A stretch of DNA of 64,000 bases from positions 62,001 to 126,000 of the forward strand of contig NZ_PYWI01000008.1 in NCBI RefSeq assembly GCF_003049575.1. The letters run 5' to 3'. The notes below the pieces were generated by a model. The model searched no databases. It worked only from the letters and a program-made list of their open reading frames with translations, and was not told the origin of the DNA. Source of the stretch: Lysinibacillus parviboronicapiens (GTDB lineage: Bacteria > Bacillota > Bacilli > Bacillales_A > Planococcaceae). Shown in pieces: positions 8,947 through 25,310 of this stretch; the first letter of the stretch is position 1, and each line of letters opens with the position of its first letter. Both the position numbers and the translations under genes were made by a program.

Positions 8947-9197
8947 GTGCGAAAAAATCAACATTTGTAAAATGATTTATCAACGAAATCCCTTGGTTAT
9001 ATGTAAAGTGGAAATCTGCAAAAGCCTATTTATTCGACAAAAAATAAGAAAAATAGAGAAAAAGTATTTATTTTTATAGAATAATTTTATTAAACTAAAT
9101 ATTTATTTTTTTCTGAAAACTATTGAAATAGGTTATTTTTTTATGTAGAATTTTAAAAAATGGAATCGCTTTTCATATATTGGAACGGAGGTTAAAA

Positions 9198-10184
9198 ATG
9201 GCTGTCAACATTTTGGAAGTCAAAGATTTGAAAATAGGATTTGAACAAGACAAAAAAGACATTGCGATTGTCAATGGCGTGTCATTACAACTTGAAAAAG
9301 GAAAAACTTTAGGGATTGTTGGCGAATCAGGCTGTGGTAAAAGTATGACGTCGCTATCACTAATGGGATTGTTACCTTCTGGAGTGGATTGGCAAAATGG
9401 AGACATTTACATAGACCAAATGCAAATTAACAAAAAATCAAAAAAAGAATGGCGAAACGTTCGAGGGAAAAAAATAGCAATGATTTTCCAAGAACCGATG
9501 AGTTCGTTAAATCCAGTTTATAAAGTTGGTTCTCAAATAGTTGAAATGATTCTTAGTCATGAGCATATATCCAAAAAAGAGGCGCTGCAACGTGCTGTTG
9601 ACATGCTTCAACTTGTTGGAATTCCTCGCCCAGAAAGAGTAGTGAATGAGTATCCTCATCAATTATCAGGTGGGATGCGTCAACGAGTCATGATTGCCAT
9701 GGCATTAGCATGTGGTCCAGAAATATTAATTGCAGATGAACCTACTACTGCATTAGACGTGACGATTCAGGCCCAAATTCTCGAATTGATGAAAGACCTG
9801 CAAGAGAAATTACAGATGTCTATCATTATCATCACGCATGATCTTGGCGTCGTTGCTGAAATTTGCGAACGAGTAGTCGTCATGTACGCAGGAGAAATAG
9901 TTGAAGAAGCGACTGTTTTAGATCTTTTTAATCATCCTCTCCATCCTTATACACAGGGTCTATTGAATTCCTTGCCAGATATTGAGACAGAGCAGGAGTA
10001 TTTGCCTTCAATTGAGGGAGTTGTACCAGCCCCAGCGGATATGCCAGCAGGTTGTAGATTTTTCGATCGATGTGAGTATGCAACAGGAAAATGTAAGAAT
10101 AAACCAAATTTGTTTACAACAAATATTGGCAGTACAGTGCGTTGCTGGCTTTATGAGAGCGGAGAATTAATAGGGGGGATGTAA
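9198..10184 (+). CDS. Peptide ABC transporter ATP-binding protein, OppD/DppD type
   Basis: 328 residues from the ATG at 9198, chosen because GGAGG (9187-9191) is ideally spaced for it; an upstream in-frame TTG at 9180 precedes the ribosome site. Walker A GESGCGKS, signature LSGGMRQR and Walker B ILIADEPTTALD are all present. The C-terminal oligopeptide-transporter extension ends with a Cys-rich AGCRFFDRCEYATGKC, the site where Fe-S-binding DppD/OppD members have four Cys. It powers peptide import with the partner ATPase immediately following (stop and start adjacent). First gene of an eleven-gene cluster. Confidence 0.92.
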   Translation: MAVNILEVKDLKIGFEQDKKDIAIVNGVSLQLEKGKTLGIVGESGCGKSMTSLSLMGLLPSGVDWQNGDIYIDQMQINKKSKKEWRNVRGKKIAMIFQEPMSSLNPVYKVGSQIVEMILSHEHISKKEALQRAVDMLQLVGIPRPERVVNEYPHQLSGGMRQRVMIAMALACGPEILIADEPTTALDVTIQAQILELMKDLQEKLQMSIIIITHDLGVVAEICERVVVMYAGEIVEEATVLDLFNHPLHPYTQGLLNSLPDIETEQEYLPSIEGVVPAPADMPAGCRFFDRCEYATGKCKNKPNLFTTNIGSTVRCWLYESGELIGGM

Positions 10185-11141
10185 ATGGTCAGTCCATTAT
10201 TAGAAGTAAAACACTTGAAAAAATATTTCAACTTAAAAGGATCACGGGCAGATTATTTAAAAGCAGTAGATGATATTTCATTTACTGTAAATGAAGGAGA
10301 GGTTTTAGGCATAGTTGGTGAATCAGGCTGTGGAAAGTCTACGATGGGAAAAACACTCATTCAATTACTTACACCAACAGAGGGTGAAATTTTATTAAAC
10401 GGAGAAAATATTGCAAACCTGAGCCCGAAAAAGGTACGTGAAAAACGCCGAGACATGCAAATTATTTTCCAAGATCCTTTTTCTTCCCTTAATCCTCGAA
10501 TGAAGGTCTATAAAATCATTGAAGAACCATTGGTTAATTTTAAGATTGGTACAAAAGAAGAAAGAAAACAACGAGTTTATGAAGTAGCTAAACAGGTGGG
10601 ACTGACACAAAAGCAATTAGATCGTTTCCCACATGAATTTTCAGGTGGTCAAAGACAACGAATAGGCATTGCGAGAGCACTTGTTTCAAATCCTAAGCTC
10701 ATTATAGCGGACGAGCCTGTATCTGCACTTGATGTATCGATTCAATCTCAAGTATTGAACATCATGAAAGACTTAAAGAAGGAAATGAATCTTACCTATA
10801 TCTTCATTTCACATGATTTAAGTGTCGTCCATCATTTTTGTGATCGTATTGGTGTTATGTACTTAGGGAAATTAGTGGAAGTAGCGGATAAGCATGAATT
10901 GTTTAGTAATCCAAAACATCCCTATACAAAAGCGTTACTATCGGCATTACCAAAATCGCATCCTTCGAGAAAAAAAGAGCGTATTGTCCTGAGAGGAGAT
11001 GTTCCAAATCCTGCAAACCCACCTAGTGGATGTACATTCCATACAAGATGTCCTAATTGTATGGACATATGCACAGTGACGCCTCCTACCCTAAAAAGAA
11101 TGGGTGAGAAGCATGATGTATCCTGCTTACTTTATGAATAA
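10185..11141 (+). CDS. Peptide ABC transporter ATP-binding protein, OppF/DppF type
   Basis: 318 residues. Walker A GESGCGKS, signature FSGGQRQRIGIARAL, Walker B LIIADEPVSALD, then the oligopeptide-transporter C-terminal domain with SGCTFHTRCPNCMDIC. It starts at the base after the stop of the OppD-type gene, behind a G-rich ribosome site inside that gene's end. Forms the heterodimeric motor with it. The gene following is an IclR regulator rather than a permease, which is unusual within an opp-type operon. Confidence 0.92.
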   Translation: MVSPLLEVKHLKKYFNLKGSRADYLKAVDDISFTVNEGEVLGIVGESGCGKSTMGKTLIQLLTPTEGEILLNGENIANLSPKKVREKRRDMQIIFQDPFSSLNPRMKVYKIIEEPLVNFKIGTKEERKQRVYEVAKQVGLTQKQLDRFPHEFSGGQRQRIGIARALVSNPKLIIADEPVSALDVSIQSQVLNIMKDLKKEMNLTYIFISHDLSVVHHFCDRIGVMYLGKLVEVADKHELFSNPKHPYTKALLSALPKSHPSRKKERIVLRGDVPNPANPPSGCTFHTRCPNCMDICTVTPPTLKRMGEKHDVSCLLYE

Positions 11142-11155
11142 AAAATGGAGCGATT

Positions 11156-11950
11156 ATGATGAGTAAAACAATAGAAAAAGGCATTAACATTTTGACATTA
11201 TTTACGGAAGAAAAACCTTCCTGGCGTTTAGATGAACTGGCACATGAAACAGACATTCCAAAGCCTACCTTACTTAGATTTCTGAAGACATTCACAGAAT
11301 TAGGGGTGTTAAAACGCCCATATATTCAAAGTGGTGGTCAACTAGTGTTGAGTGATCATTATTTTCTTGGACATAAATTAATTGAATTGGGGGCTATTGC
11401 TGCTAATTCCATTGAAATTCGTTCACTTGCTATACCACATATGAAAATGTTACAGCAGAAATTTGACTTAGCTGTTCAGTTAATCGTGATGGACGATACA
11501 GATGGTCTATACATTGAAAAAATAGAAAGTCTAAAACCGGTATTACTTTATACAAGAGTAGGGAGAAGGGCGCCACTGTACGCAGGTGCTTGTTCACGTA
11601 TTATCTTATCTTTCCAATCAGAAGAAAAAATACAAGAAGTTTTACAAAAAACACGTAAAAAATATGCCAGTGGAACACCGGTAACAGACGAAGAAATCTA
11701 TGAATTGATTGAATTTGGAAAAAACAATGGCTATGCCTACAGTGTTTCCGAACTAGAAGAGGGCACCATTTCAATAGCTGTACCAATTTTTAATAGCAAT
11801 CGTGAAGTAGAATATTCCATCAGTATCGCTGGAATAGATTCGTTATTACCTAAAGAAAAAGTAAATGGTTTTTTAGAGGGGCTTTGGGCCACAGCGGCTT
11901 CAATATCAGCTGAATTAGGTTATTCGTTGCCATATCCATATGGTGTATAA
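11156..11950 (+). CDS. IclR-family transcriptional regulator
   Basis: 264 residues. N-terminal winged helix (KGINILTLFTEEKPSWRLDE to PKPTLLRFLKTFTELG), then the IclR effector domain with LAVQLIVMDDTDGLYIEKIE and PLYAGACSRIILSF. The regulator KipR of B. subtilis, which sits next to the pxp (kip) genes, is also IclR-type, which supports it controlling this cluster in response to a peptide or 5-oxoproline. It lies between the ATPase genes and the binding-protein gene with gaps of 14 and 28 bp, so it is co-transcribed. No clear palindromic operator was found in the AT-rich leader (9000-9197). Confidence 0.88.
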   Translation: MMSKTIEKGINILTLFTEEKPSWRLDELAHETDIPKPTLLRFLKTFTELGVLKRPYIQSGGQLVLSDHYFLGHKLIELGAIAANSIEIRSLAIPHMKMLQQKFDLAVQLIVMDDTDGLYIEKIESLKPVLLYTRVGRRAPLYAGACSRIILSFQSEEKIQEVLQKTRKKYASGTPVTDEEIYELIEFGKNNGYAYSVSELEEGTISIAVPIFNSNREVEYSISIAGIDSLLPKEKVNGFLEGLWATAASISAELGYSLPYPYGV

Positions 11951-11978
11951 ATAGCAAACAACAAAGGGGATGTCGTAT

Positions 11979-13562
11979 ATGAAAAAATACAAATTGTTCA
12001 CGTTGTTACTTGTATGTATGCTGCTCGTATTAACAGCATGTAGTGGTGACACATCAGAAAGTGGTAATAAAGAAAAAAACAATGGAAAAGTGAAGGGTGA
12101 AAATCCAGCAATAGCCCGTGGCAACGAATTAGTCATTCGTGTTCCGGGAGATCCACAAAACTGGGATCCAATTGATACATATCTATTGGCTTGGAGTATG
12201 GTTGGAACTTCCGTATTTGAAGGTTTAGTTAGTCGTTCACTTGACTTAGAAATTCAACCCGGCTTAGCAGAGTCTTGGGAATATGTAGATGATAAGACAC
12301 TCGTATTCCAATTGCGTAATGGCGTTACATTCCACAATGGCGAACCATTTAACGCAGAAGCAGTTAAATTTACATTTGACCGTTTACTTGGTGAAGAGGG
12401 GCAAAAGGGGCCTCAATATTCAAACTATACATCGATTGATCGTGTAGAAGTAACTGGCGATTATGAAGTAACAATGTATTTAAAGGCAATTGACCCAGTG
12501 TTATTAACGAAATTATCTGGTTACGGTGCAGTCATCGTTCCACCAAAATACATTACTGAACAGGGTGCAGAGAATTTTGATATGAAACCTGTCGGAACAG
12601 GTCCATTCAAGATGACGGATTACCAACGTGATAAAGAAGTGGTCGTGGAGCGTTATGCAGATTATTGGAATAAAGACGCAATTAAGCTAGATAAAGTAAC
12701 GTTTAAAGTCATTCCAGAAACTGCGACAGCATTAGCAGAATTACAAACAGGTAACATTGATATTATGACACGCTTAGAAGTTGCTCAAGCAGCAACCGCA
12801 GAAGGTACTGACTTCATCACTTTAATGGATGTACCTACTCCTACAGCATACTCGATACGCTTTGATACAGCGAAAGCACCTGTAGACGATGTACGAGTTC
12901 GACAAGCAATCAACTTTGCCATTGATAAGGAAACAATCGTGAAAGAAATCTTAGGTGGTTATGGAAAACTTATCAGCTCATTCCAAAGTGAACTTTCATT
13001 TGGCTATAACAAAGATTTACAACCATATCCATATGATCCTGAAAAGGCAAAAAAACTTCTTGCTGAGGCAAATGTTGCTGAAGGAACAACATTAGAATTC
13101 TATATTCCGGGTACTGATGGAACATTTAAAGAAATTGCACAAGCAGTCGCTTTCTATTTACAAGAAGTGGGCTTAAAAGTATCTATTAATAGTGTAGAAA
13201 ATACAACCTTCCAATCAGAATTAATACCAAAAGGCGACGCTGGTCATATGTATAAAAATGGTTGGGGTGGTTGGACTTTAGACTTTGATAATACTGCCTA
13301 TTTAATGTATCACGAAGGAGAATTTTGGAATCCAACTTATAAAAACGATAAAGTTGAACAATTGTTAACTGCGGAACGTGCGACGAATGATAGTACGGAA
13401 CGTGAAAAAATCTTTAAAGAACTGACAGACGTATTATATGAAGATGCAGCAGAAGTGAATTTATATTCAGAAGTTGAAATATACGGAGTGAATAAGCGAG
13501 TAAAAGATTTCCAACCACCACATGATGGTCGCTTTAGATTTGAAGGGGTTACTGTCGAGTAA
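11979..13562 (+). CDS. Peptide-binding lipoprotein of the ABC transporter (SBP family 5)
   Basis: 527 residues from the ATG at 11979, preferred over 11970 because AAAGGGG abuts the earlier ATG. A lipoprotein signal peptide ends in the lipobox L-T-A-C (Cys at about residue 22), so the protein is anchored outside the membrane. The family 5 extracellular solute-binding motif is seen at GLAESWEYVDDKTLVFQLRN and the following FHNGEPFNAEAVKFT. It captures peptides and delivers them to the two permeases. A hairpin follows at 13574-13605, as often seen after highly expressed binding proteins. Confidence 0.92.
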   Translation: MKKYKLFTLLLVCMLLVLTACSGDTSESGNKEKNNGKVKGENPAIARGNELVIRVPGDPQNWDPIDTYLLAWSMVGTSVFEGLVSRSLDLEIQPGLAESWEYVDDKTLVFQLRNGVTFHNGEPFNAEAVKFTFDRLLGEEGQKGPQYSNYTSIDRVEVTGDYEVTMYLKAIDPVLLTKLSGYGAVIVPPKYITEQGAENFDMKPVGTGPFKMTDYQRDKEVVVERYADYWNKDAIKLDKVTFKVIPETATALAELQTGNIDIMTRLEVAQAATAEGTDFITLMDVPTPTAYSIRFDTAKAPVDDVRVRQAINFAIDKETIVKEILGGYGKLISSFQSELSFGYNKDLQPYPYDPEKAKKLLAEANVAEGTTLEFYIPGTDGTFKEIAQAVAFYLQEVGLKVSINSVENTTFQSELIPKGDAGHMYKNGWGGWTLDFDNTAYLMYHEGEFWNPTYKNDKVEQLLTAERATNDSTEREKIFKELTDVLYEDAAEVNLYSEVEIYGVNKRVKDFQPPHDGRFRFEGVTVE

Positions 13563-13573
13563 TTAGTAAGTTA

Positions 13574-13605
13574 AGAGATAGTATGCTTACATACTATCTC
13601 TTTCA
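13574..13605 (+). terminator. Attenuating hairpin after the binding-protein gene
   Basis: AGAGATAGTATG (13574-13585), loop CTTA, exact complement 13590-13601, then TTCATTTC. The weak T-run suggests partial read-through, giving more binding protein than permease. Confidence 0.75.
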
Positions 13606-13628
13606 TTTCAAACTAGGAGGATGGAATT

Positions 13629-14561
13629 ATGCTTTCCTATATACTGAGACGTTTATCGCATACGGTGCTGGTGATTATGGCCGTTTCATTAATCATATTT
13701 TTCTCTATCCGTTTAACAGGAGACCCAGTAAGTATTATGTTCGGTGCTGGTGAACCAAGTCAGCAGGCCGTAGAAGAGTTAACTGCTAAATTAGGTTTAG
13801 ATAAGCCGGTGTGGGAACAATATATCATTTTTATGAAAGATTTATTCATGCTTGATTTTGGTACGTCGTATCGCTCCAATAGCCCCGTTCTGGATATGCT
13901 GATAGAACGTGCATGGCCAACGATTGCACTTGCTTTAGGTGGTATGACTGTGGCGTTATTAATCGCTGTTCCTATTGGCATTCTATCAGCTGTGTATAAA
14001 GGAAAATCAATTGATATATTTGGTCGTATCTTCTCGCTACTAGGTATCTCATTTCCAAACTTTTGGTTAGCCTTTATGTTAATTTTAATCTTTGCTGTAC
14101 AGCTAAAATGGCTACCTGTATCAGGTTTTGATGGCTTGAGTTCGTTAATATTGCCATCCATCGCATTAGGACTTATTTTATCAGGTATTTTAGTGCGTTT
14201 AATTCGATCATCGATGCTTGAGGTACTTAAAATGCAATATGTCACGACAGCAAGATCTAAAGGAATTAGAGAATGGCTCGTCATTGTAAGGCATGCATTC
14301 CGAAATGCGTTATTGCCAACGGTGACATTTGTTGGTTTGCAGTTTGGTGGGCTATTAGGTGGTGCGGTTATAGTAGAGCAAGTATTTTCTTGGCCAGGCA
14401 TTGGTCGTTTAATTGTTGACTCCATCAATCAACGGGATTATCCAGTTGTACAAGGTGGCATTATTCTTCTGGCATTATTAATGATCATGGTCAATTTGAT
14501 GGTAGATTTATGCTACTCATTGATTAACCCGAAAATTCGGACAGGAAGAGGTGACAATTAA
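13629..14561 (+). CDS. Peptide ABC transporter permease, DppB/OppB type
   Basis: 310 residues, six predicted membrane helices. The inner-membrane-component signature EAA loop is visible as YVTTARSKGIREWLVIVRHA, which contacts the ATPases. The N-terminus MLSYILRRLSHTVLVIMAVS is the usual DppB start. GGAGGATGGAATT precedes the ATG. Its stop overlaps the start of the second permease (TAATG). Confidence 0.93.
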   Translation: MLSYILRRLSHTVLVIMAVSLIIFFSIRLTGDPVSIMFGAGEPSQQAVEELTAKLGLDKPVWEQYIIFMKDLFMLDFGTSYRSNSPVLDMLIERAWPTIALALGGMTVALLIAVPIGILSAVYKGKSIDIFGRIFSLLGISFPNFWLAFMLILIFAVQLKWLPVSGFDGLSSLILPSIALGLILSGILVRLIRSSMLEVLKMQYVTTARSKGIREWLVIVRHAFRNALLPTVTFVGLQFGGLLGGAVIVEQVFSWPGIGRLIVDSINQRDYPVVQGGIILLALLMIMVNLMVDLCYSLINPKIRTGRGDN

Positions 14562-15463
14562 TGACACAGGCGATTGAGACTGAAATAGTAGCGGCTAAAA
14601 AGACAAGTAAAATGATGCAGATTTTAAAGTATATCAAAGCGAACTTGACAGGGATGATCGGATTAGTGCTAGTAGTAGCCGCCATATTTTGTGCCATTTT
14701 TGCGCCATATATCGCGCCATATGATCCAGGTGCTGCCAGTTTAGGGCAACGCCTAGATATGCCTAAATGGTTGGATGAAACAGGGGAATCACAATATTTA
14801 CTTGGAGGAGACCAAGTAGGACGTGATTTGTTGAGTAGAATTATTTATGGGGCACGTATTTCTTTATTGGTTGGTATTTGCGGGGTTGCCATTTCTCTTG
14901 TGTTAGGCACGGTTTTAGGACTTGTTTCTGGTTATTTTGGGAAATGGTTGGATGATTTAATTATGCGTTTGGCAGAAGTTCAATTAGGGCTGCCTTTTAT
15001 ATTATTAGCGATTGTTATTATGAGTGTATTTGGTACAGGCATTGAGAAAATCATTATTATTTTAGGTCTTACGTATTGGGTAAGTTTTGCCCGATTAATA
15101 CGCGGAGAAATTTTGGCCTTAAAAGAACAAGAGTATATTCAAGCGGCGAAAGCTATTGGAGGAACTCATTTCAAAATAATCGTTAAGCATATTCTGCCAA
15201 ATGTTGCGTCTTCTATTTTAGTATTAGCTACTATGTGTATTGCAGAGTTTATTTTATTAGAGGCTTCCCTGACATTTTTAGGATTAGGCGTTGAACCAAC
15301 TGTACCTTCATGGGGCGGCATGCTAGCCGATAGTCGGAACTATATGACATCGGCATGGTGGATTTCTGTATTCCCAGGTATTGCAATTATGTTAACAGTA
15401 TTAGGCTTTAACTTATTAGGGGATTGGCTGCGTGACCGCTTAGATCCGAATATGAAAGTTTAG
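14561..15463 (+). CDS. Peptide ABC transporter permease, DppC/OppC type
   Basis: 300 residues. N-terminal cytoplasmic tail, then helix 1 (MIGLVLVVAAIFCAIFAPYI) and the DppC hallmark YDPG, followed by LLGGDQVGRDLLSRIIYGAR. The EAA loop is YIQAAKAIGGTHFKIIVKHI. It forms the transmembrane channel with the preceding permease. It ends only a few bases before the M14 peptidase start, in one polycistronic unit. Confidence 0.93.
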   Translation: MTQAIETEIVAAKKTSKMMQILKYIKANLTGMIGLVLVVAAIFCAIFAPYIAPYDPGAASLGQRLDMPKWLDETGESQYLLGGDQVGRDLLSRIIYGARISLLVGICGVAISLVLGTVLGLVSGYFGKWLDDLIMRLAEVQLGLPFILLAIVIMSVFGTGIEKIIIILGLTYWVSFARLIRGEILALKEQEYIQAAKAIGGTHFKIIVKHILPNVASSILVLATMCIAEFILLEASLTFLGLGVEPTVPSWGGMLADSRNYMTSAWWISVFPGIAIMLTVLGFNLLGDWLRDRLDPNMKV

Positions 15464-15472
15464 GTGATGAAT

Positions 15473-18295
15473 ATGAATACAACTATTTTCACAAGTTTAT
15501 TTAGTATGCATCAACCGTTAAAAAAACCTTCCTTATATATTGAATTACCGTCTCATCTTGCACCTGTTGGATTAATCGACTTTTGTGTGAGATTGGGCTT
15601 GGAAGCAAATGAACTTGATTTTAATTTATTTCAACCAGCCAACCAAACTTTCTCAATGATTTTTCAACACCATGATGCCACGTATGTGATGAAAAAAAAT
15701 TCAACATTTATCTTTTATTATGAGACAGAGGAGTCATTATCGGCATTGTTAAGCGCTGTTGCGTGTGAGGGTATGCCAGATACAAGTGAAACGATTCCTG
15801 CTATCTATTATGAAAGTTTAAGTCATCTGTGGTCAGCTTATGGTACTGGTGAAAAAGATGAGGCCCATCCTTTACAACATCTAAGTGTACAAATGCATTT
15901 GCAAGAAGCAGTGCAAAGTCATGCACTCTTGAAAGAAGTTTGTTATCTTGGGCTACGACTAGGCTTATATTCAACGACAGCTTCTTTTCCTGTTGTGACA
16001 CAAGAAGAACGTAATTTGTCCATTGTCATTAAACTAGGGACCGAAAATATTATGGAACTAGTCGCTCCGAACGCCATTCATATAATGGGTACGAAAGTAA
16101 GTCTACCAACTGTTCTTCATACGATTACAAAAGAAAAGCACGTCACTGAAGGTGGTTTACTTGGTATTTGGGAATTAAACGACAAGCAAGTTAATGAAGC
16201 TCAACTGCTATACGAAGAAAAGTGGCAAGATGAATCAGAAGCTACATCGATTATGAATGCATTACAAATGGAAACACAACTAGAAGTAGATGCCGAAATA
16301 TATATAACGGCATCAAAAGAAAAACGAGATAACTATCGTTTAGATTTAGTTGATAAATTTCCCACTCTAAAGACTATCTATGTGCGCTCGGCATTTAAAA
16401 CAGGATTGTACTGGATATTAGAAGAAGTACTGCCGTCAGTTCAAACACCTTTTACACAGGTGAAAATTGTTTGTAAGGATGGCAGCAAGCAAAAAGGTTT
16501 AGAATTACGCAATCGATGGATTATGGAACTATATCCGATTGACGAATTGATTGAAGCGCAATATGGGGTTCCGAAGGAGAATGTTCATTTTGAACTATCG
16601 TCCACACAACATCACGTTTATCGTGTCTATGTAGATGAACAATTGATAGCGGTATTAAACCCGTTAATTAGTGAATTGGATTATGTAGCTGGAGATAAAA
16701 AAGCGTATCCGACTACAGCAGGATACAGATTATTTAAAGATGAAGATTGTATTCAAGAAAAAGCCATATTGTCTGATCGAGAACGCTTTTATAAATACTA
16801 TATAGATAGATTTTTACCACATGTCGTGGATCGATTAGTTATTGATAAAAGTAGTAGCAGTCAAGGGGAACTGTATCCGCTTTTTGACCGAATTGAAATA
16901 GACTTTACCTCTTCTGGAATTGAAGAGGAACTCTCTATTAAACAAGAAGCAAATTCATCCTTTGAGGCGTTGTATGAGGATATATATTTCAACACGCTGG
17001 ACTATTTTTATGCATTGGGCGACCGACTAGTGAATCGACCTTATAAGGCGCCAGGAGGTGTTGTACCTTTTATCCATATGCAGGAGGATATCTATGCGCC
17101 CATTAATAGCTTGCTAAAGTTGTATCAGTGGCGTGAACAAGCATATATAGCCTCTACAACAAAGCGAATACTATTTGATGATAACGGACGGATGGACCGT
17201 GTAGAAATGCTCGTTGGCCAAAAACGTCAAGTTGTTGCAGTAGAACAACCATTAAAACACAAAATAAAAGATGACTTTCAGCTATTAAGTAGATATAACA
17301 CCATGCCAGAAGTCAAAATCAATACTGCGGATTTGTCGTATAAAGGGAACTTGATACCCTTTATCGAAGTGACAGAACCGATTACTAGTGACTATTTTTC
17401 GGGGCTCAAGAAATCTAATGACAAGCATACGATTGTTTTTGAAGCGGGGCATCATCCAAATGAAGTTTCGAGTACACCTGCTATATTAGAACTAGTGGAA
17501 GATGTTATTCGTCAGCACCCAGAGATTTTAAAGAAAATCAATATGATTGTGATTCCACTAGCGAACCCGGATGGTTATGAGCTGATGAAGACTTTGACAC
17601 AAGAGCATCCAAAATGGAAACATCATGCAGCCAGATACAATGCAGTTGGATTAGAATTTGCGCATGTGAAATTCCAAAAAAGTGTATTTGGTGAGGCAAA
17701 TGTTTTACCAATGATATTAAAAAAATGGGCACCTGATATTGTACTAGATGATCATGGGATTCCTGCGCGTGAATGGGTACAGCCTTTTGCTGGCTATGCT
17801 TGCCCACCTATTTTTCCAGTCTCCTATACATTGCCAAGCGCAAAAATATATGGGATTGGTCGTTATGCAGATAGTGGGACAAGGGAGATTCAGGCAAAAA
17901 ATTTAGAACATGTAGCTGAAAAAGTGAATGCTATTTTTGAAGACACAACCTTTGCTGAAGAAAATACTTATTGGCGTCATCGTTATTATAAGTATGGTAC
18001 GAAGTGGGAACCTCAAAAATACCCAATTGAAGAAATGGGCAATATTAATTTCTACCGGGGGATGGAAGTGACACCAACATACTCTTCTGTAAGTATTTTA
18101 CGTTACCCCCAATGGGTGGCACTTGATATAATATCAGAAGTGGCAGACGAAATTGTGTATGATGAGGAATTAAATTCATGTATTCAGGCTCATAAGTTAT
18201 TCAATCAGGCAATTATCGAGGCGGTTGTCTCGACACCAGTCAATAAACAAAATCAAAATGGGCGGATCATCAAACAACGTCCAATAGAAATCTAG
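15473..18295 (+). CDS. Large M14-type zinc metallopeptidase with long N-terminal extension
   Basis: About 940 residues from the ATG at 15473, chosen for its AGGTGATG ribosome site; GTG 15464 and ATG 15467 overlap that site. Only the last third is recognisable. FEAGHHPNEVSSTPA holds the M14 zinc motif H661-x-x-E664, NPDGYEL is the substrate-carboxylate region, and H761 in LDDHGIP is the likely third zinc ligand. Residues 1 to about 600 match nothing I recognise. No signal peptide is present, so it should act in the cytoplasm on imported peptides. Its position between the transporter and pyroglutamyl peptidase suggests it trims or deblocks peptides. Most M14 enzymes are 300-450 residues. Confidence 0.75.
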   Translation: MNTTIFTSLFSMHQPLKKPSLYIELPSHLAPVGLIDFCVRLGLEANELDFNLFQPANQTFSMIFQHHDATYVMKKNSTFIFYYETEESLSALLSAVACEGMPDTSETIPAIYYESLSHLWSAYGTGEKDEAHPLQHLSVQMHLQEAVQSHALLKEVCYLGLRLGLYSTTASFPVVTQEERNLSIVIKLGTENIMELVAPNAIHIMGTKVSLPTVLHTITKEKHVTEGGLLGIWELNDKQVNEAQLLYEEKWQDESEATSIMNALQMETQLEVDAEIYITASKEKRDNYRLDLVDKFPTLKTIYVRSAFKTGLYWILEEVLPSVQTPFTQVKIVCKDGSKQKGLELRNRWIMELYPIDELIEAQYGVPKENVHFELSSTQHHVYRVYVDEQLIAVLNPLISELDYVAGDKKAYPTTAGYRLFKDEDCIQEKAILSDRERFYKYYIDRFLPHVVDRLVIDKSSSSQGELYPLFDRIEIDFTSSGIEEELSIKQEANSSFEALYEDIYFNTLDYFYALGDRLVNRPYKAPGGVVPFIHMQEDIYAPINSLLKLYQWREQAYIASTTKRILFDDNGRMDRVEMLVGQKRQVVAVEQPLKHKIKDDFQLLSRYNTMPEVKINTADLSYKGNLIPFIEVTEPITSDYFSGLKKSNDKHTIVFEAGHHPNEVSSTPAILELVEDVIRQHPEILKKINMIVIPLANPDGYELMKTLTQEHPKWKHHAARYNAVGLEFAHVKFQKSVFGEANVLPMILKKWAPDIVLDDHGIPAREWVQPFAGYACPPIFPVSYTLPSAKIYGIGRYADSGTREIQAKNLEHVAEKVNAIFEDTTFAEENTYWRHRYYKYGTKWEPQKYPIEEMGNINFYRGMEVTPTYSSVSILRYPQWVALDIISEVADEIVYDEELNSCIQAHKLFNQAIIEAVVSTPVNKQNQNGRIIKQRPIEI

Positions 18296-18304
18296 GTGAA
18301 TAAA

Positions 18305-18919
18305 ATGACAAAAATATTAATAACAGGGTTTGTGCCATTTCTTGACTATACAATGAATCCAACCATGCAAATTGTAGAAGCTTTGGATGGAAAGGTAATG
18401 GATGATTATGAGATTGCTGGACGCATATTGTCTGTAGATTTTCAGCAATCTGCCCAGCAGTTGCAACAACATATTGCTGAAGTAGAGCCTAAAATCATCA
18501 TCTCATTAGGATTAGCTGGAGGACGTTTTAAGATTACACCAGAGCGAATTGCCATTAATGTGAAAGATGGCGAGGTTGATAATAATGGTTATACACCAGT
18601 GGATGAAAGCATTCTTGACGGTGGAGTCGATGCCTATCTAACGAATTTGCCTATCCGCAACATGGTGAACCGCTTACACAACGAAGTCTATCCTGCCGAA
18701 ATTTCAAATACAGCAGGTACCTATTTATGCAATAATATTATGTATGAAGGGCTACGTTACGCACAGCAACATGAAGGAGTTCTCGCTGGATTCATCCATA
18801 TTCCTGCTTCCTTTGAGTTGGCCATTCAGCATGGCAAAATACCAGGATGGAATAGCCAAGATTTAATCGCCAGTATCGAAATCTGCATCAAAGAGGCAAT
18901 TTGTGCGGCGAATAATTAA
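18305..18919 (+). CDS. pcp: Pyroglutamyl-peptidase I (cysteine peptidase C15)
   Basis: 204 residues from the ATG at 18305 (AGGTGA 5 bp upstream); the in-frame GTG at 18296 lies inside the ribosome site. LITGFVPFLDYTMNP matches the C15 N-terminus. The catalytic triad is recognisable as E in TPERIAIN, C in TYLCNNIMYEG and H in FIHIPAS. It releases N-terminal 5-oxoproline (pyroglutamate) from peptides. It overlaps pxpB by 17 bp, whose product belongs to the enzyme that opens 5-oxoproline, giving a direct functional link. Confidence 0.93.
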   Translation: MTKILITGFVPFLDYTMNPTMQIVEALDGKVMDDYEIAGRILSVDFQQSAQQLQQHIAEVEPKIIISLGLAGGRFKITPERIAINVKDGEVDNNGYTPVDESILDGGVDAYLTNLPIRNMVNRLHNEVYPAEISNTAGTYLCNNIMYEGLRYAQQHEGVLAGFIHIPASFELAIQHGKIPGWNSQDLIASIEICIKEAICAANN

Positions 18920-19598
18920 TTTCCCTCATACTATGTGGATTAGCCAATACACAGTTCGTTTTGCATTTAATGAAGTAATATCCCAAGAAAATTTTCAAGC
19001 TGTACAAAAATTTAATTGGTTTCTGCAAAAAAATCTACAGCACAAGTTAGTTGAAACAGTTGCTAGCTATCACACAGTTACGGCATATATCCATCAAAAA
19101 ATTGATATAAAGTGTTTACAAAAGCAATGGCTTGCTATGCAAATGTCTACAACAAACGAAGAAATACCAAGTCGCCATTTACAAATTCCAATTTGCTATG
19201 ATGAAGAATTTGCCTTAGATATGCAACGTGTTATGGATTATACGCGCTTAACGTATGAAGAGGTAAAAGTAATGCACATGTCTAAGGCATACCTTGTGTA
19301 TTTAATTGGATTTTTACCGGGATTTCCTTATTTGGGTGATTTACATGAACAATTGTTTGTACCACGCTTGAAGAAGCCAAGAAAATCAGTATCAGCAAGC
19401 TCAGTTGGCATTGGTGGTGCACAGACAGGGATTTATCCACTCGATTCACCAGGTGGTTGGAATATTATTGGCAAAACACCATTTACTTTATTTGATGTAC
19501 ACGAGAAGAACAGTTTTTTATTTTCTCTAGGGGATCAAGTACAGTTTTATGAAATCACAAAGCAGGAGTATAGTGAAATAAAGAGCAAAGGAGTGTAG
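18903..19598 (+). CDS. pxpB: 5-oxoprolinase subunit B (KipI family)
   Basis: 231 residues. FLPGFPYLGDLHEQLFVPRL and VGIGGAQTGIYPLDSPGGWN are hallmarks of PxpB/KipI (allophanate hydrolase subunit 1 fold). With PxpA and PxpC it hydrolyses 5-oxoproline to glutamate using ATP. The GTG at 18903 gives a 17-bp overlap with pcp, with AAAGAGGC upstream; ATG at 18933 is possible but has no ribosome site. B. subtilis KipI was first described as a sporulation-kinase inhibitor, so a side role in signalling cannot be excluded. Confidence 0.93.
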   Translation: MRRIINFPHTMWISQYTVRFAFNEVISQENFQAVQKFNWFLQKNLQHKLVETVASYHTVTAYIHQKIDIKCLQKQWLAMQMSTTNEEIPSRHLQIPICYDEEFALDMQRVMDYTRLTYEEVKVMHMSKAYLVYLIGFLPGFPYLGDLHEQLFVPRLKKPRKSVSASSVGIGGAQTGIYPLDSPGGWNIIGKTPFTLFDVHEKNSFLFSLGDQVQFYEITKQEYSEIKSKGV

Positions 19599-19601
19599 CA
19601 G

Positions 19602-20474
19602 TTGAAGCCACTTCTTATAGTGAAAAAGCAAGGTGTATATGGTAGCATGCAAGACCAAGGGAGATACGGCTATCGGGCATACGGTATTCCTCGATCTGGA
19701 CCTATGGATAAAGTATCATTCCAAGCAGCTCATTATATTTTAAATAACGACAAAAACCAAACTTCATTTGAAGTATTTATTGGTGGGTTTGAATTTGAGG
19801 CATTAACTGGAGGTACTTATGTATTGACAGGGGCACAAAGCGAATGTTGCGTGAATGGTGTACCTGTCGAAATGTGGAAGACCTTTCAATTAGCACAGGG
19901 AGATCGGTTAACGATAAAAAATGTCAGTTGTGGGTCAATCGTGTATCTAACGCCTAAAGGTGGATTTCAAACAGCGCAAATACTGGCCAGTAATTCGTGT
20001 TTTCCCTTAGGGACCATAGGTGATTCGGTAAGGAAAGGTAGCATATTGTATGGGCATGAAACTGAGTCATCTGCGTCCATGCCATTTACAAGGGGTCTAT
20101 ATGCACCATTTCGTCCGACATTTAAAGACGCCATAACAGTAAGCGTTTTTAAAGGCCCTCATTTTGATTTATTTACCGAAGAAAGTCAACAGCAATTATT
20201 GCAGCATTCGTTCCAATTGACAGGGGGAAATCGGATGGGCTATTACTTGAAAGGTTCTGTGCTGCAGTTGAAGGAAAAGAAAGATATTCTTTCGGAGGCA
20301 ACACAATTTGGAACAATTCAAGTGCCACAAAATGGGGAGCCAATCGTATTAATGGCAGATGCACAAACGGTTGGTGGCTATCCAATAATTGCTACAATTC
20401 ATGAAGAGGACTTACATAAAATTGCTCAAATGCGTGTGTTTAACACTGTGAAATTTGCACTATCGGAGGGATAG
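19602..20474 (+). CDS. pxpC: 5-oxoprolinase subunit C (KipA family)
   Basis: 290 residues, TTG start with GGAGTG upstream. The N-terminal GSMQDQGRYGYRAYGIPRSG followed by PMD is the conserved signature of the PxpC/KipA (biotin-dependent carboxylase-like) domain. GNRMGYYLKG and LMADAQTVGGYP are typical C-terminal motifs. Partner of PxpB; together they form the catalytic complex with PxpA. Gaps to the neighbouring genes are 3 and 2 bp. Confidence 0.93.
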   Translation: MKPLLIVKKQGVYGSMQDQGRYGYRAYGIPRSGPMDKVSFQAAHYILNNDKNQTSFEVFIGGFEFEALTGGTYVLTGAQSECCVNGVPVEMWKTFQLAQGDRLTIKNVSCGSIVYLTPKGGFQTAQILASNSCFPLGTIGDSVRKGSILYGHETESSASMPFTRGLYAPFRPTFKDAITVSVFKGPHFDLFTEESQQQLLQHSFQLTGGNRMGYYLKGSVLQLKEKKDILSEATQFGTIQVPQNGEPIVLMADAQTVGGYPIIATIHEEDLHKIAQMRVFNTVKFALSEG

Positions 20475-20476
20475 CT

Positions 20477-21202
20477 ATGCCATTTGATATAAATTGTGAT
20501 ATGGGTGAAAGCACGGATGCTTTTAGATTAGACAATGATGATGCAATTTTAGATTATGTGACGTCCATTAATATTGCATGTGGCTATCATGCTGGTAATC
20601 ATACAATAATGCATCGTACTGTAAGAAATGCCATCCGAAAAAATGTCCATATTGGCGCACACCCAGGTTATCCTGATGTCGAAGGATTTGGTCGTCGTAA
20701 TCGGGATTTTAGTGCACAGGAAATTTACAATATGGTCGTCTATCAAATAGGGGCATTACAAGCTTTTGTTACTGTAGAAAATGGAACACTCCATCATGTC
20801 AAGCCGCATGGGGCGCTTTATAATCAAAGTGCAAATGATATCGAAAAGGCAACAGCGATTGTCAAGGCGGTATATGACGTAAACCCAGCATATATTTTAT
20901 ATTGCTTGTCTGGCAGTAAGATGGCCACTATTGCAAAAGAACAAGGATTACTGGTGTACGAGGAAGCTTTTTCAGATCGTAATTACAATGATGACGGTAC
21001 ATTAGTGAGTAGATTGGAACCAAATGCGCTGATTCACACAGAGGCGGAAATGCTAGTACATGTCAAAGGTATTTTCACAACGAATGAGGTAATGTCTGTG
21101 CAACAAAAGAAAATCAAAATTTCCGCCCAAACACTGTGTATACACGGGGACGGCCCACATGCACTCGCCTTTGCCAAAAAAATATATGAGCTGAATCGTT
21201 AA
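20477..21202 (+). CDS. pxpA: 5-oxoprolinase subunit A (LamB/YcsF family)
   Basis: 241 residues, a normal length. INCDMGES at the start, SINIACGYHAGN and GAHPGYPDVEGFGRR are the invariant LamB/YcsF motifs that line the metal/substrate site. It completes PxpABC in the order B-C-A. The stop is followed by no recognisable terminator; the gap downstream is decayed sequence. Last gene of the peptide-salvage cluster that starts at 9198. Confidence 0.95.
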   Translation: MPFDINCDMGESTDAFRLDNDDAILDYVTSINIACGYHAGNHTIMHRTVRNAIRKNVHIGAHPGYPDVEGFGRRNRDFSAQEIYNMVVYQIGALQAFVTVENGTLHHVKPHGALYNQSANDIEKATAIVKAVYDVNPAYILYCLSGSKMATIAKEQGLLVYEEAFSDRNYNDDGTLVSRLEPNALIHTEAEMLVHVKGIFTTNEVMSVQQKKIKISAQTLCIHGDGPHALAFAKKIYELNR

Positions 21203-21583
21203 GTAAGGTAAGTTTGACAACTTAGAAAGAAAATGACGCCTAAGCCAAGCTGATTGGTGTGGTAATCGAGGAAAATGAATGAACAGCCGACTTTTACTTC
21301 GGGCACCATGCCAATTATTCCTTTGATTTTTTTAAGCGGGCAATAACACCCAGGTGAATGGAAGGCGTTAAAAGGCAGTCCCATTGGTGACTTTGGTTTC
21401 AATCGTGTTAGCAGTCACTGTGGTGATTCATGGACTAGTCTTTAAATGCCTTCTCTTTTTTATGTTCATCTATAAATCGTTACGTTTACTAAAACACGTA
21501 CCACTTGTTGAGGGGCTTGTTATACCTATGTACCTATGTATCTATAAAGTAAAATTTGTTTAATAAAGTAGTGGTAATGTCCA
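21203..21583 (+). other. Gap without a supported gene; coding-like scraps
   Basis: No open frame with a ribosome site. Short plus-strand pieces look coding but are in different frames (for example HPGEWKALKGSPIGDFGFNR near 21350-21410, and a hydrophobic VTLVSIVLAVTVVIHGLVF near 21389-21445). This pattern suits a decayed gene I cannot name. Confidence 0.35.
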
Positions 21584-21942
21584 TCAATTTACTTTCTTAT
21601 ATGTAAATGTGTATTCATAATAGCTGATTGCATCCAGTTTTTTTTGTGCATTTTGGGATGAAGTTTCCATGATATCAAGAATGCCTTCTGCGACTTTAAT
21701 TGGTACATAAAGATAGGTCTCTGGCAATTCTGCAATAAAGCATACATACAGCCAAAGTAGGTAATATCCTTCAGTGCGATGGCTGTTGTTCTATAATGTC
21801 TCGTAAAGCGCCAGCTAGTGGTGTTACGTTCTTCTCTATCTTTCCACCTACGCCATTCCAAGCCCCATCCATTCAGAAAAATCCCTATATAGCCATACTA
21901 TTTGGTCACCCTCTTCACAAAACAACTTGTAAATGCTACCAA
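21584..21942 (-). pseudogene. Decayed Nudix hydrolase
   Basis: On the minus strand a TTG (21940-21942) follows GGAGG (21950-21954) but is interrupted after 14 codons. Further on, one frame reads AWNGVGGKIEKNVTPLAGAL then RDIIEQ, which is a Nudix box (GGK-E-x7 type) with the second half damaged. After a frameshift comes LPETYLYVPIKVAEGILDIM and a C-terminus ending at the TGA at 21584-21586. At least two frame disruptions and one internal stop are present. The final Nudix-box glutamates (REx2EE) read as RDIIEQ, so catalysis would be lost even without the frameshifts. Confidence 0.7.
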
Positions 21943-22066
21943 TTACATTCCTCCTTTTGTTTAGCAAAGCGAAAAAAATCAAGCACATGAATGTGGTGAT
22001 TCCAGCCATTAACCGCTCTTGAATGCTCCGCATGAAATGAATCGATGATAAAAACTAACATTTAAA

Positions 22067-22136
22067 TGTTCAAAGTAAACAAAAAGTTATTGACTTAATT
22101 ATCAGAAAAGTGCATAATTTGTTCAAAGTGAACAAA
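22067..22136 (+). promoter_or_regulatory. Promoter and palindromic operators of the sugar-acid operon
   Basis: TTGACT (22090-22095), 17 bp, CATAAT (22113-22118) forms a strong promoter. TTTGTTCA-AAG-TGAACAAA (22118-22136) is a perfect 8-bp palindrome just downstream of the -10. A second, imperfect copy TGTTCA-AAG-TAAACA (22067-22081) lies upstream of the -35. Two sites flanking the promoter fit repression by the DeoR-type protein encoded next, possibly with looping. Confidence 0.8.
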
Positions 22137-22165
22137 TGATTTTTAGGTACAGAAAGGGAACTACT

Positions 22166-22927
22166 ATGACACCTTTAAAACGAAAGAAAAAAATTATTGA
22201 TGAAATTCAGAAAAAAGGCAGGGTAGAAATTTTAGAATTAGTTGAGATGCTTGGTGTGTCTGCCATGACAATTCGTCGGGATTTAGATGAACTTGAAAAA
22301 CATAAAAAGCTTATTCGTACACATGGCGGTGCAACACATGCTCAAACTATTATGACAGAAGTAAGTTACAATCAAAAACTTTCTGAAGCACGTTCACAAA
22401 AAATAGAAATTGCAGAAAAAGCAGTGTCACTTGTTAAAGAAGACATGAAAGTTTTTTTAGATTCTGGCACAACCAATTTAGAAATTGCACGCCAGTTAAA
22501 ATCAAGACAACCCCTAACGATTGTAACGAACGATATTATAATTGCTGCTGAATTGATGGATAGTGAGCACGAATTAGTATTACTCGGTGGCATTGTTCAA
22601 AAAAATGTAGGCGCTGTGTTCGGGGTAACAGCTGATGAAATGTTGCGAAATATTCATGTAGATATCGCATTTATAGGTGCACATGCAGTACATGCCAATT
22701 TAGGAATCATGTCGACTACCTTTGAAAAGGCTTCTTTGAAAAAGCGTGTTATTGACGCTTCTGAATCAGTTTATCTAGTAGTCGATTCTAGTAAGTTTGA
22801 AAAGAAAGCGTTTGCAAAAATTGCTAAAGTAGACAGCGTAACGGGAATTATTACGGATCATCTTTTGCCAGAGGATATCAAAGAGCTTTATAAGGAATAT
22901 TCAATATTCATAGAAGAGGTGAGTTAA
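22166..22927 (+). CDS. DeoR-family transcriptional repressor
   Basis: 253 residues from the ATG at 22166 (AAGGGA 6 bp upstream); the earlier ATG at 22136 overlaps the operator and has no ribosome site. The N-terminal HTH RVEILELVEMLGVSAMTIRR followed by DLDELE and THGGA is diagnostic of DeoR. The C-terminal DeoR sensor domain has the DSGTTNLEIA and GIVQKNVGAVFG motifs that bind a phosphorylated sugar intermediate. The likely effector is the product of the adjacent kinase. It overlaps the kinase gene by one base. Confidence 0.92.
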   Translation: MTPLKRKKKIIDEIQKKGRVEILELVEMLGVSAMTIRRDLDELEKHKKLIRTHGGATHAQTIMTEVSYNQKLSEARSQKIEIAEKAVSLVKEDMKVFLDSGTTNLEIARQLKSRQPLTIVTNDIIIAAELMDSEHELVLLGGIVQKNVGAVFGVTADEMLRNIHVDIAFIGAHAVHANLGIMSTTFEKASLKKRVIDASESVYLVVDSSKFEKKAFAKIAKVDSVTGIITDHLLPEDIKELYKEYSIFIEEVS

Positions 22928-24231
22928 TGAAAATCGGCGTAATTGCAGATGACCTAACAGGAGCTAATGCAACGGGCGTGTGTTTATCAAAAAAGGCGTT
23001 TCGTAGTGCTACTGTAGTATTCGGTGGAGAAATCCCTAAAAATAGCTCGCTTAATGCGCTATGTTTCGATACAGATAGTCGTTATGTGCAACCACAAATT
23101 GCTGCACAGCGCGTCCTCCGTGTTCAAAAGCAGCTAGATATGTGGGGAGCAGATGTTATTGCGAAACGAATTGATAGTACTGTACGTGGAAATTTGGGGA
23201 GTGAGATTGATGCATTATTAGAGATCAAAGCAAATCGAATTGCGGTTGTCATCGTGACGTATCCGGACTCTGGTCGTTCCGTAACAGGTGGTTATTTACT
23301 AGTAGATGGGGTTCCTGTTGAAAAAACAGATGTTGCAAAAGACCCGATGAATCCAATTACGGATTCCCATGTACCGTCTATTTTACAAAAGCAAAGCTAT
23401 CATAAAGTTACACATATTACTTTATCATGTGTGTTACAAGGACAACTAGCATTACGTGAACAACTAGTACAACAGATTGAAGAAGGTAGTCGTATTATCG
23501 TGATAGATGCTATATCGAATGAAGATATTGATGTCATCGCTGAGGCAATGATGACTATTAAAGATTTCGATGTAATGCCTGTCGATCCTGGGCCATTAAC
23601 AGCGGCATACGGCTATGCCAAGACCGCCCAATCTGTCAAAAATAATAAAATTATCGTGACAGTTGGAAGCATTACCTCATTAACAGGTTGCCAGTTACAA
23701 TACGTCATTGATAAACGCAATGCCAACCCAGTTTACGTCAATCCTCAACAACTTGCCTCCGTTTCATCTAGCTGGGACGAGGAAATTGCACGTGCTACAG
23801 CGGAAGCATTCGAAAAGCTATTTAGTGAAGATGTATTAATCATCACGACCTATTCACCACGAACAGAAAAATTAGACTTATGGACGCTTGCAAAGGAACA
23901 AAATGTCCCAGAAGAAATAGTAGCAAAACGGATTACAGAGGGCTTAGCCATGATAACAAATCAAGTTGTACAACATGCGAAATCTCGTATTAGCGGTTCG
24001 TTTTCTAGCGGCGGGGATGTTACAGCGGCTATTTGTGCAATCAGTGGTGCAGAAGCGATTCAACTATATGACGAAGTGCTACCACGGGCAGCATTTGGGC
24101 GATTTATCGGTGGTACATTCGATGGGATTCCTGTCGTAACAAAAGGCGGAACAGTGGGTGACAAGCATTCGATTGATGAGTGCATTCAATATTTAATAAA
24201 TAACAAGGAAGAAGGTCGAGTAACAATATGA
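22927..24231 (+). CDS. Four-carbon sugar-acid kinase (DUF1537 family), probable D-threonate kinase
   Basis: 434 residues. The N-terminus [17 protein letters not shown] is the substrate-binding start of the DUF1537 kinase family (OtnK, LtnK, DtnK). The C-terminal nucleotide site is visible as [15 protein letters not shown] and [20 protein letters not shown]. Pairing with a PdxA2-type dehydrogenase is the arrangement established for D- or L-threonate catabolism: phosphorylation at O4, then oxidation and decarboxylation to dihydroxyacetone phosphate. Which threonate isomer is used cannot be read from the sequence; D-threonate (DtnK) is likelier since a GntP carrier and no LtnD-like gene is present. 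Confidence 0.85.
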
Positions 24232-25244
24232 CAACAACTATTAGAGAAATTATCGCTATTCCAATGGGCGATGCAGCAGGAATTGGGCCAGAAATTACTG
24301 TGAAATCTTTAGCAAAGGAAGAGATTTATACAATGTGCAAGCCATTAGTAGTCGGTGATGCAGGCATTGTTCAAAAAGCCATCGATGTAACGGGCGTACA
24401 ATTGTCAGTCAATGTGGTTTCCACACCATTAGATGGTAAATATCAATTCGGTACCATTGATATCATCGATTTAGCCAACGTCGATATGGATGCATTTGAA
24501 CCGGGTCAAGTATCAGCTCAAAATGGTAGGGCGTCTTTTGAATTTATTAAAAAATCAGTAGAACTAGCAATGAATGGTGAAGTCAAAGCTTTAGCAACTA
24601 CACCGATTAATAAAGAATCATTAAAAGCTGGAAAAGTGCAGTATATCGGACATACAGAAATGCTGGAAGACTTAGCACAATCCAAAGATCCACTAACAAT
24701 GTTTCAAGTAAAGGGGATGCGTATTTTCTTCTTAACACGTCATTTATCTGTTGCGGATGCCATTAAACAAATGACAAAAGAACGTGTATACGATTACTTA
24801 GTGCGTTGTGACAAAGCATTAGCACGTTTAGGTGTTGAAAGTCGTAAATTTGCAGTAGCGGGTTTAAACCCACATGCTGGTGAAGGGGGGTTATTCGGAA
24901 TGGAGGAAGTAGAAGAAATCAAACCAGGCATTGAATTAGCAGTCGCTGCTGGTATCGATGCCGTTGGGCCTGTTCCGGCAGACTCTGTTTTTTATCAGGC
25001 ACTAAATGGTCGCTATGATGCTGTTCTGTCTTTATATCACGACCAAGGACATATCGCTGCAAAAATGACGGACTTCCACCGTACAATTTCAATTACAAAT
25101 GGTTTACCGTTTTTACGTACATCCGTAGATCACGGAACAGCATTTGATATTGCTTGGAAAAATATAGCTTCGGAAGTAAGTATGTATGAATGCATCAAGC
25201 TTGCTGCTGAATATGCACCGAAATTTACAAGACAATCACTTTGA
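24228..25244 (+). CDS. pdxA2: PdxA2-type 4-phosphothreonate dehydrogenase
   Basis: 338 residues. Motifs of the PdxA family: [12 protein letters not shown] at the start, [22 protein letters not shown] with metal-ligand His, [12 protein letters not shown], and [15 protein letters not shown] plus [11 protein letters not shown] at the end. PdxA itself acts in vitamin B6 synthesis, but Bacillales make PLP by PdxS/PdxT, and the operon with a DUF1537 kinase points to the PdxA2 role of oxidising 4-phosphothreonate. It overlaps the kinase gene by 4 bp, so translation is coupled. A terminator follows. Confidence 0.88.
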
Positions 25245-25256
25245 TTAAAAAGAAAT

Positions 25257-25282
25257 GAGGGAATATTCCTTTCCTCTTTTTT
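25257..25282 (+). terminator. Terminator between pdxA2 and the permease gene
   Basis: GAGGGAA (25257-25263) with TTTCCTC (25270-25276), loop TATTCC, then TTTTTTC. The permease gene has no strong promoter of its own, so this is probably leaky. Confidence 0.65.
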
Positions 25283-25310
25283 CTTATATAAAAATGAAAG
25301 GGGTTACAAT

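Follow-up and report, generated by a model that had tools for sequence, protein, structure and literature searches.

A recurrent importer, IclR, M14 and pcp gene unit in Lysinibacillus parviboronicapiens and related bacteria, a candidate system for pyroglutamyl peptides

We analysed a 64,000-nucleotide stretch of the 4.75-Mb genome of Lysinibacillus parviboronicapiens (contig NZ_PYWI01000008.1), hereafter the window, to whose positions all coordinates refer. At 9198-21202 it holds an operon of eleven forward-strand reading frames, all free of internal stops and separated, in gene order, by 0, 14, 19, 66, -1, 0, 0, -17, 3 and 2 bases. Pfam assigns them to two ATP-binding cassette (ABC) ATPases with the oligopeptide C-terminal domain, IclR, SBP_bac_5, permeases B and C, Peptidase_M14, Peptidase_C15, CT_C_D, CT_A_B and LamB_YcsF. 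The operon thereby encodes a complete family 5 ABC importer (one binding protein, two permeases and two ATPases), an IclR-family regulator, an M14-type metallopeptidase, pyroglutamyl peptidase (pcp) and, together, all three subunits of the 5-oxoprolinase PxpABC. Frames, families and tiny gaps bear out a preliminary description of the region, which had listed the same eleven genes in one direction, with two amendments: the Pfam M14 match spans only residues 618-726 of 943, in the C-terminal part, and the regulator gene sits within the operon, between dppF and the binding-protein gene.

Table 1 Features of the operon and its upstream region, in window coordinates.
Feature	Position	Strand	Basis
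Predicted promoter TTGAAA, 17-base spacer, TAGAAT	9123..9151	+	consensus scan
Predicted three-box IclR-type operator TGGAA-N5-TTTCA-N5-TGGAA	9161..9185	+	12 bases 5' of dppD start codon
DppD-type ATPase	9198..10184	+	PF00005, PF08352
DppF-type ATPase	10185..11141	+	PF00005, PF08352; NF008453 410.8 vs cut-off 408
IclR-family regulator	11156..11950	+	HTH_IclR and IclR_C; best solved relative 1mkm, E 7.9e-23
Family 5 substrate-binding lipoprotein, Trp435 at DppA Asp436 position	11970..13562	+	PF00496, alignments, lipobox LTAC (by eye)
DppB-type permease	13629..14561	+	PF00528; Opp2B 361.1 vs cut-off 350
DppC-type permease	14561..15463	+	PF00528, OppC_N
M14-type metallopeptidase, 943 residues; C-terminal carboxypeptidase fold, N-terminal 600 residues without assigned family	15464..18295	+	
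Pyroglutamyl peptidase I (C15), pcp	18296..18919	+	PF01470; E83, C145, H168 align with solved Pcp residues
5-oxoprolinase subunit PxpB	18903..19598	+	TIGR00370 above cut-off
5-oxoprolinase subunit PxpC	19602..20474	+	PF02626; solved relative YbgK 5dud; below PxpC equivalog cut-off
5-oxoprolinase subunit PxpA	20477..21202	+	PF03746; NF003814 above cut-off

PxpB (170.5 against a cut-off of 145.55), PxpA (311.9 against 226) and Pcp (PRK13197, 241.2 against 199) all exceed NCBIfam cut-offs. Pcp falls below that of TIGR00504 (188.8 against 201.75), and PxpC below its NCBIfam models (182.8 against 500; 223.3 against 230.2). The Pfam match of Pcp reaches 183.7 bits, and its three residues aligned to solved enzymes presumably form the Glu/Cys/His catalytic triad. 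No PxpT/YcsG-type secondary transporter family was detected by Pfam among the eleven proteins.

We searched 32 Lysinibacillus genomes for the M14 gene and examined 21 pcp loci of the genus. Full-length M14 is present in 10 of the 32, our own included (G006 holds remnants only), and all ten (the window, L028, L029, L030, L032, L033, L037, L043, L044 and L110) carry the eleven genes in identical order. The 21 pcp loci divide into 8 complete clusters, 8 with pcp-pxpBCA that lack the importer, IclR and full M14, and 5 with pcp that lack the pxp set; of the second eight, one keeps an M14 remnant and one (L045, G005) has about 1.5 kb, roughly 13192-14669, between the pxpB match and pxpC. Importer, IclR and M14 thus come and go jointly, and pcp-pxp is separable.

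Scanning a species collection with an M14 alignment yielded 77 named loci. All four importer subunits, a family 5 binding protein, M14 and pcp are found together in 41 of them, 40 with IclR and 25 with adjacent pxp. These 41 cover 16 named genera: Lysinibacillus, Sporosarcina, Planomicrobium, Cytobacillus, Paenisporosarcina, Neobacillus, Bacillus, Ureibacillus, Rossellomorea, Evansella, Halobacillus, Halalkalibacterium, Brevibacillus, Tepidibacillus, Mesobacillus and Sporolactobacillus. Gene orders vary, with iclR first or third and pxp arranged as BCA, as BAC, in front, or absent; where pxp is not adjacent (16/41), pxpB lies elsewhere in the genome in every case. When we kept the 62 M14 loci whose flanks reach 6 kb or more upstream and 5 kb or more downstream, 39 had both an importer (at least two of dppBCDF) and pcp, 14 had neither, 5 had pcp only and 4 the importer only. 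A further order, outside the 77, is found at G113:C268 (iclR-pxpB-pxpC-pxpA-Nramp-like-pcp-sbp5-dppB-dppC), which runs to the contig edge in a cut-off frame resembling the M14 N-terminus.

To avoid selecting for M14, we also anchored the search on the binding protein. Among 398 genomes of the class (E ≤1e-110, up to three candidates scored per genome), a close relative of the binding protein occurs in 14, of which 13 have pcp no more than 7 kb away (G080 through loci L098 and L315), against a background of pcp in 199 of the 398. The exception is an Alicyclobacillus metagenome-assembled genome (MAG; G255, locus L212). Recurrence across genera and the nearness of pcp in 13 of 14 genomes show that the association exceeds chance, and the link between importer and pcp is real and widespread. 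Gene order is conserved beyond one strain, as the preliminary description required, and the family 5 importer is tied to pcp, and often to 5-oxoprolinase. The recurrent unit is importer, IclR, M14 and pcp, and pxp is an optional, separable neighbour. To call the cluster a dedicated pathway island, as had been proposed, overstates the place of pxp, given the 16 of 41 loci where it is not adjacent and the 8 of 21 Lysinibacillus loci that keep pcp-pxpBCA and no importer. In the Tepidibacillus cluster, pcp matches fall in two overlapping pieces in different frames (L098, 8337-8926; L315, 825-1426).

The regulator follows the same unit. Among the 62 flank-filtered M14 loci, IclR and pcp co-occur in 43 and are both missing from 18, with pcp only in one and IclR only in none; at the 13 importer-less Lysinibacillus pcp loci (18.6 kb each), no iclR was found near pcp with the window IclR as query (E 1e-10). 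IclR therefore accompanies the combination of M14 and pcp, not pcp as such.

Nine Lysinibacillus sequences have in common, before dppD, a block that ends at the ribosome-binding site, and in these the TTGAAA and TA..AT bases of the predicted promoter are invariant. Promoter-like sites in the region as a whole number 46, against a mean of 48.6 in shuffles, and terminator-like sites likewise do not exceed shuffles. The predicted operator, TGRAA-N5-TTYCA-N5-TGRAA, consists of three half-sites ten bases apart in alternating direction. We scored it within the 70 bases before the dppD match at 31 loci with the order dppD-dppF-iclR-sbp5 (687,437 bases). It is exact at 25, has one mismatch at 3 and is absent at 3; the rest of this sequence contains no exact copy on either strand and only two forward and five reverse one-mismatch copies (reverse matches overlapping the operator itself left out). 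A two-box version is present at 26 of the 31 loci, against 0.035 expected from background. Our own genome has two exact three-box copies, one being the site before dppD and the other at C27:47717; allowing one mismatch, the three-box search gave 12/7 matches against 3/7 in a control, and a two-box search was uninformative there (110/114 against 82/80). Nine loci have iclR first (seven Brevibacillus, one Bacillus and one Tepidibacillus), and six of them, all Brevibacillus, carry a related TTYCRTAWTWYGGGA site before iclR in place of the three-box motif.

IclR-family operators with three boxes form a known class, and PcaU, PobR and HmgR use an extra direct half-site, according to PMC8222616; by its letters, the window site belongs with them, having three alternating half-sites at a promoter. 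None of 16 stand-alone pxp operons, from the genomes whose importer, M14 and pcp locus has no adjacent pxp, has the three-box site with up to one mismatch on either strand, so the regulator appears dedicated to importer, M14 and pcp. We rejected IclR as a general controller of pxp on the same count. Two stand-alone pxp regions have a two-box match, which in L279 lies 91 bases before pxpB and in L283 at another place, and one of the 13 importer-less Lysinibacillus pcp regions (L027) has a one-mismatch three-box match. Corynebacterium glutamicum senses 5-oxoproline with a regulator of another family, GntR (available part of PMC13274462).

Where the ABC importer is missing, a putative transporter of another type appears. 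All five loci with M14, IclR and pcp and no ABC importer (L195, L197, L203, L206 and L207, from Brevibacillus fulvus, B. centrosporus, B. thermoruber, Alicyclobacillus suci and Paenibacillus sp. BSR1-1) encode the DUF969-DUF979 pair, whose Pfam identity we took from L195, and the pair was detected in none of the 41 ABC-importer loci. It also stands beside pcp in 15 of the best 30 pcp loci, drawn from the 199 class genomes with pcp. The pair is suspected of transporting 5-oxoproline, and in a preliminary experiment a Campylobacter jejuni mutant in these genes no longer grew on 5-oxoproline (PMC12795558, PMC11467057). The exchange supports a transport role for the ABC set, yet it also feeds the rival view, weighed below, that this set imports 5-oxoproline. 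Alicyclobacillus herbarius (L198) has M14 and DUF969-DUF979, and pcp was not found at that locus.

The binding protein (model predicted local distance difference test score, pLDDT, 89.6) scores below every NCBIfam equivalog listed, the best being GsiB (200.9 against 594). In Escherichia coli DppA, R383 and D436 bind the two ends of the dipeptide, and reversal of both abolished binding (available text of PMC12136057). The window protein has neither anchor: Trp435 occupies the Asp436 position and is invariant in 40 aligned homologs, and the Arg383 position falls in an alignment gap. The Asp is kept in E. coli DppA, OppA and MppA in our alignment, and is found in none of 60 binding proteins beside M14 (44 of WGGWT type and 16 others alignable there). 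For 39 of the 44 WGGWT-type proteins pcp is at the locus, against one of the 16 others. We considered whether the Asp is present after all as WTLD and rejected this, as the gap-free register against DppA is GW...DN. With Trp for Asp and the Arg lost, the protein speaks against a classical dipeptide importer, and the anchor pattern fits, and does not prove, N-terminally blocked ligands.

WGGWT-type binding proteins beside M14 and with no pcp nearby occur at L209, L212, L213 and L218 (Alicyclobacillus, a Chloroflexota and a Bacillota MAG); L212 also encodes an M20 peptidase, a D-serine-dehydratase-like protein and an Asp/Glu racemase. The Sporosarcina locus L166 has such a protein with pxp and no pcp. 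At L173, L175, L189, L190, L193 and L194 (Oceanobacillus, Geomicrobium and another Bacillaceae strain), M14 relatives stand with a family 5 binding protein of another type and no pcp, and the alignable binding proteins there read GWVTGTGDADY or similar.

In the M14 protein, the HxxE...H residues H664, E667 and H764, which we take by motif to be the zinc ligands, are invariant in 20 homologs. M14 carboxypeptidases have a GVDxNRN-like motif whose Asn-Arg pair binds the substrate C-terminus; the corresponding stretch here reads GLEFAHV by eye, in a part of poor model confidence. The N-terminal 600 residues gave no Pfam match in the first family member tested, and AstE_AspA and ILEI each matched one of 20 members, weakly. 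Longer homologs (P0028, P0033 and P0156) have near their start, by eye, D-x-N-x-D-G-x-x-D, resembling an EF-hand calcium loop, which the window protein lacks.

Together, these data suggest, with a probability of about 0.55, that the operon serves inducible uptake and degradation of N-terminally blocked, above all pyroglutamyl, peptides. The lipoprotein would capture blocked peptides outside the cell, and DppBC-DppDF, as is known for the family, would import them with ATP. Inside, M14 would attack the peptide body; given the blocked amino end, it would probably start at the free C-terminus. Pcp, whose catalytic residues are present, would remove pyroglutamate, and PxpABC, whose genes are adjacent here but lie elsewhere in other genomes, would convert 5-oxoproline to glutamate with ATP, both as their families do. 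IclR may bind the three-box site at the dppD promoter, placed there by comparison, and may switch the operon in response to an imported substrate or product. Protein hydrolysates and fermented foods contain pyroglutamyl peptides, of which the short ones withstand endo- and exopeptidases (PMC6779755). Of the earlier proposal that the importer is specific for pyroglutamyl or Glu/Gln-rich peptides, the first half is compatible with the departure from the Dpp anchors; for the second we found no supporting evidence.

Only tentatively do we extend this to a joint reading with four parts. The WGGWTLDFDNTA binding proteins would be a class of ABC importer dedicated to N-terminally blocked peptides, with Trp435 packing on the pyrrolidone ring where the Asp of DppA and OppA holds the free amino group; the M14 proteins of 900-1,070 residues would be a novel type of peptidase that acts on blocked peptides inside the cell; the operon's own IclR would control all of it through the three-box operator; and DUF969-DUF979 would be an exchangeable alternative transporter.

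Several observations weigh against uptake of blocked peptides. Loss of the Asp is unspecific, since GsiB and NikA also lack it and only three of seven other alignable family 5 proteins of our own genome have it, and the Trp435 loop (431-440, pLDDT 65) is the lowest-confidence block of the mature-protein model. Five of the 44 WGGWT proteins have no pcp nearby, and M14 is also found with other binding proteins and no pcp. The loci are related by descent and the counts are not independent, so the numbers describe rather than test. Finally, pcp-pxpBCA is often kept without the importer (8/21 Lysinibacillus loci), so that Pcp and Pxp work without it.

That last point favours a general importer whose substrates are small peptides with a free amino end, with Pcp and Pxp clearing pyroglutamate from N-terminal Gln or Glu, formed after import or in the cell, as does a fold nearest to general family 5 proteins including GsiB and DppA. 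We judge this unlikely given that both DppA terminus anchors are lost, one to an invariant Trp, and that pcp accompanies the importer in 13 of 14 binding-protein-anchored genomes. The DUF969-DUF979 exchange instead points to import of free 5-oxoproline or another small glutamate derivative, the ABC set standing in for DUF969-DUF979 or PxpT. The partners that vary least, Pcp and M14, are not needed for free 5-oxoproline, 16 of the 41 importer loci have no pxp nearby, and one arrangement has an Nramp-like gene besides the ABC importer genes, which makes such a role decidedly unlikely.

Two further substrates seem improbable. GsiB, the best NCBIfam match though far below cut-off, is also among the closest structures, as expected if the importer took up glutathione or other gamma-glutamyl peptides whose glutamyl part is cyclised inside to 5-oxoproline; Pfam assigned none of the eleven proteins to a cyclotransferase or gamma-glutamyl transferase family, and to our knowledge Pcp does not act on gamma-glutamyl bonds. 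We give equally little credence to a reading in which pcp was a secondary recruit and the importer takes up other N-blocked compounds, namely N-acyl amino acids or modified or D-peptides: the pcp-less WGGWT loci of Alicyclobacillus, a Chloroflexota and a Bacillota MAG, and the M20, dehydratase-like and racemase genes of L212, would suit them, but such loci are 4 of 44 (the fifth, L166, has pxp) and the 39 others have pcp.

The operon is a new variation on known 5-oxoproline salvage clusters. C. glutamicum likewise clusters pxpABC with a transporter and regulator for 5-oxoproline use (pxpTABC/pxpR), but its transporter, PxpT, is of secondary type and its 5-oxoproline-binding regulator of GntR type, and the available text of PMC13274462 does not mention pcp, an ABC importer or M14. 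The Bacillus subtilis operon pxpA-ycsG(mntG)-pxpB-pxpC-kipR differs in its secondary-type transporter, YcsG, reassigned to manganese import; the contrast drawn with it in the preliminary description needs the caveat that it too has a regulator, KipR, with an IclR-family homologue in Thermotoga (PMC10448178, available part). DUF969-DUF979-pcp clusters also place pcp beside a putative 5-oxoproline transporter, in their case a secondary-type pair rather than an ABC importer. We know of no Dpp-type importer, M14 or pcp in the B. subtilis pxp operon. E. coli DppABCDF shares the subunit plan and binding-protein fold, but has the R383 and D436 anchors absent here, and the window importer is clustered with peptidases and IclR. 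In E. coli mppA-mpaA, a family 5 binding protein likewise lies near MpaA, presumably an M14-type enzyme, but MppA keeps the Asp anchor, the peptides are murein peptides, and neither pcp nor pxp lies in the 10 kb inspected. Some of these clusters may already appear in Niehaus et al. (2017), who reportedly named PxpABC.

N-terminal glutamine gives rise to pyroglutamyl peptides spontaneously, and our open-access literature search found no paper on a dedicated bacterial importer of them. The cluster supplies one candidate each for the binding protein, the residue, the operator and the peptidase. It further suggests a function for a large M14 family, most of which is unassigned, and adds a genetic argument about DUF969-DUF979. 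One regulated gene set in Lysinibacillus and many related bacteria probably imports pyroglutamate-capped peptides and recycles them to glutamate.

Around the operon, a gene for an M32 carboxypeptidase (Taq type) lies about 4.5 kb upstream on the same strand (3173-4669). Downstream of pxpA, 21203-22135 comprises more than 900 bases with no reading frame of at least 120 residues, possibly decayed. It is followed at 22136-26684 by a row of genes for a DeoR regulator, a D-threonate-kinase-like protein, a PdxA-type dehydrogenase and a GntP permease, probably a sugar-acid (D-threonate type) catabolic cluster. At 28557-32168, a 1203-residue protein has a strong dynamin-type GTPase match in two stretches.

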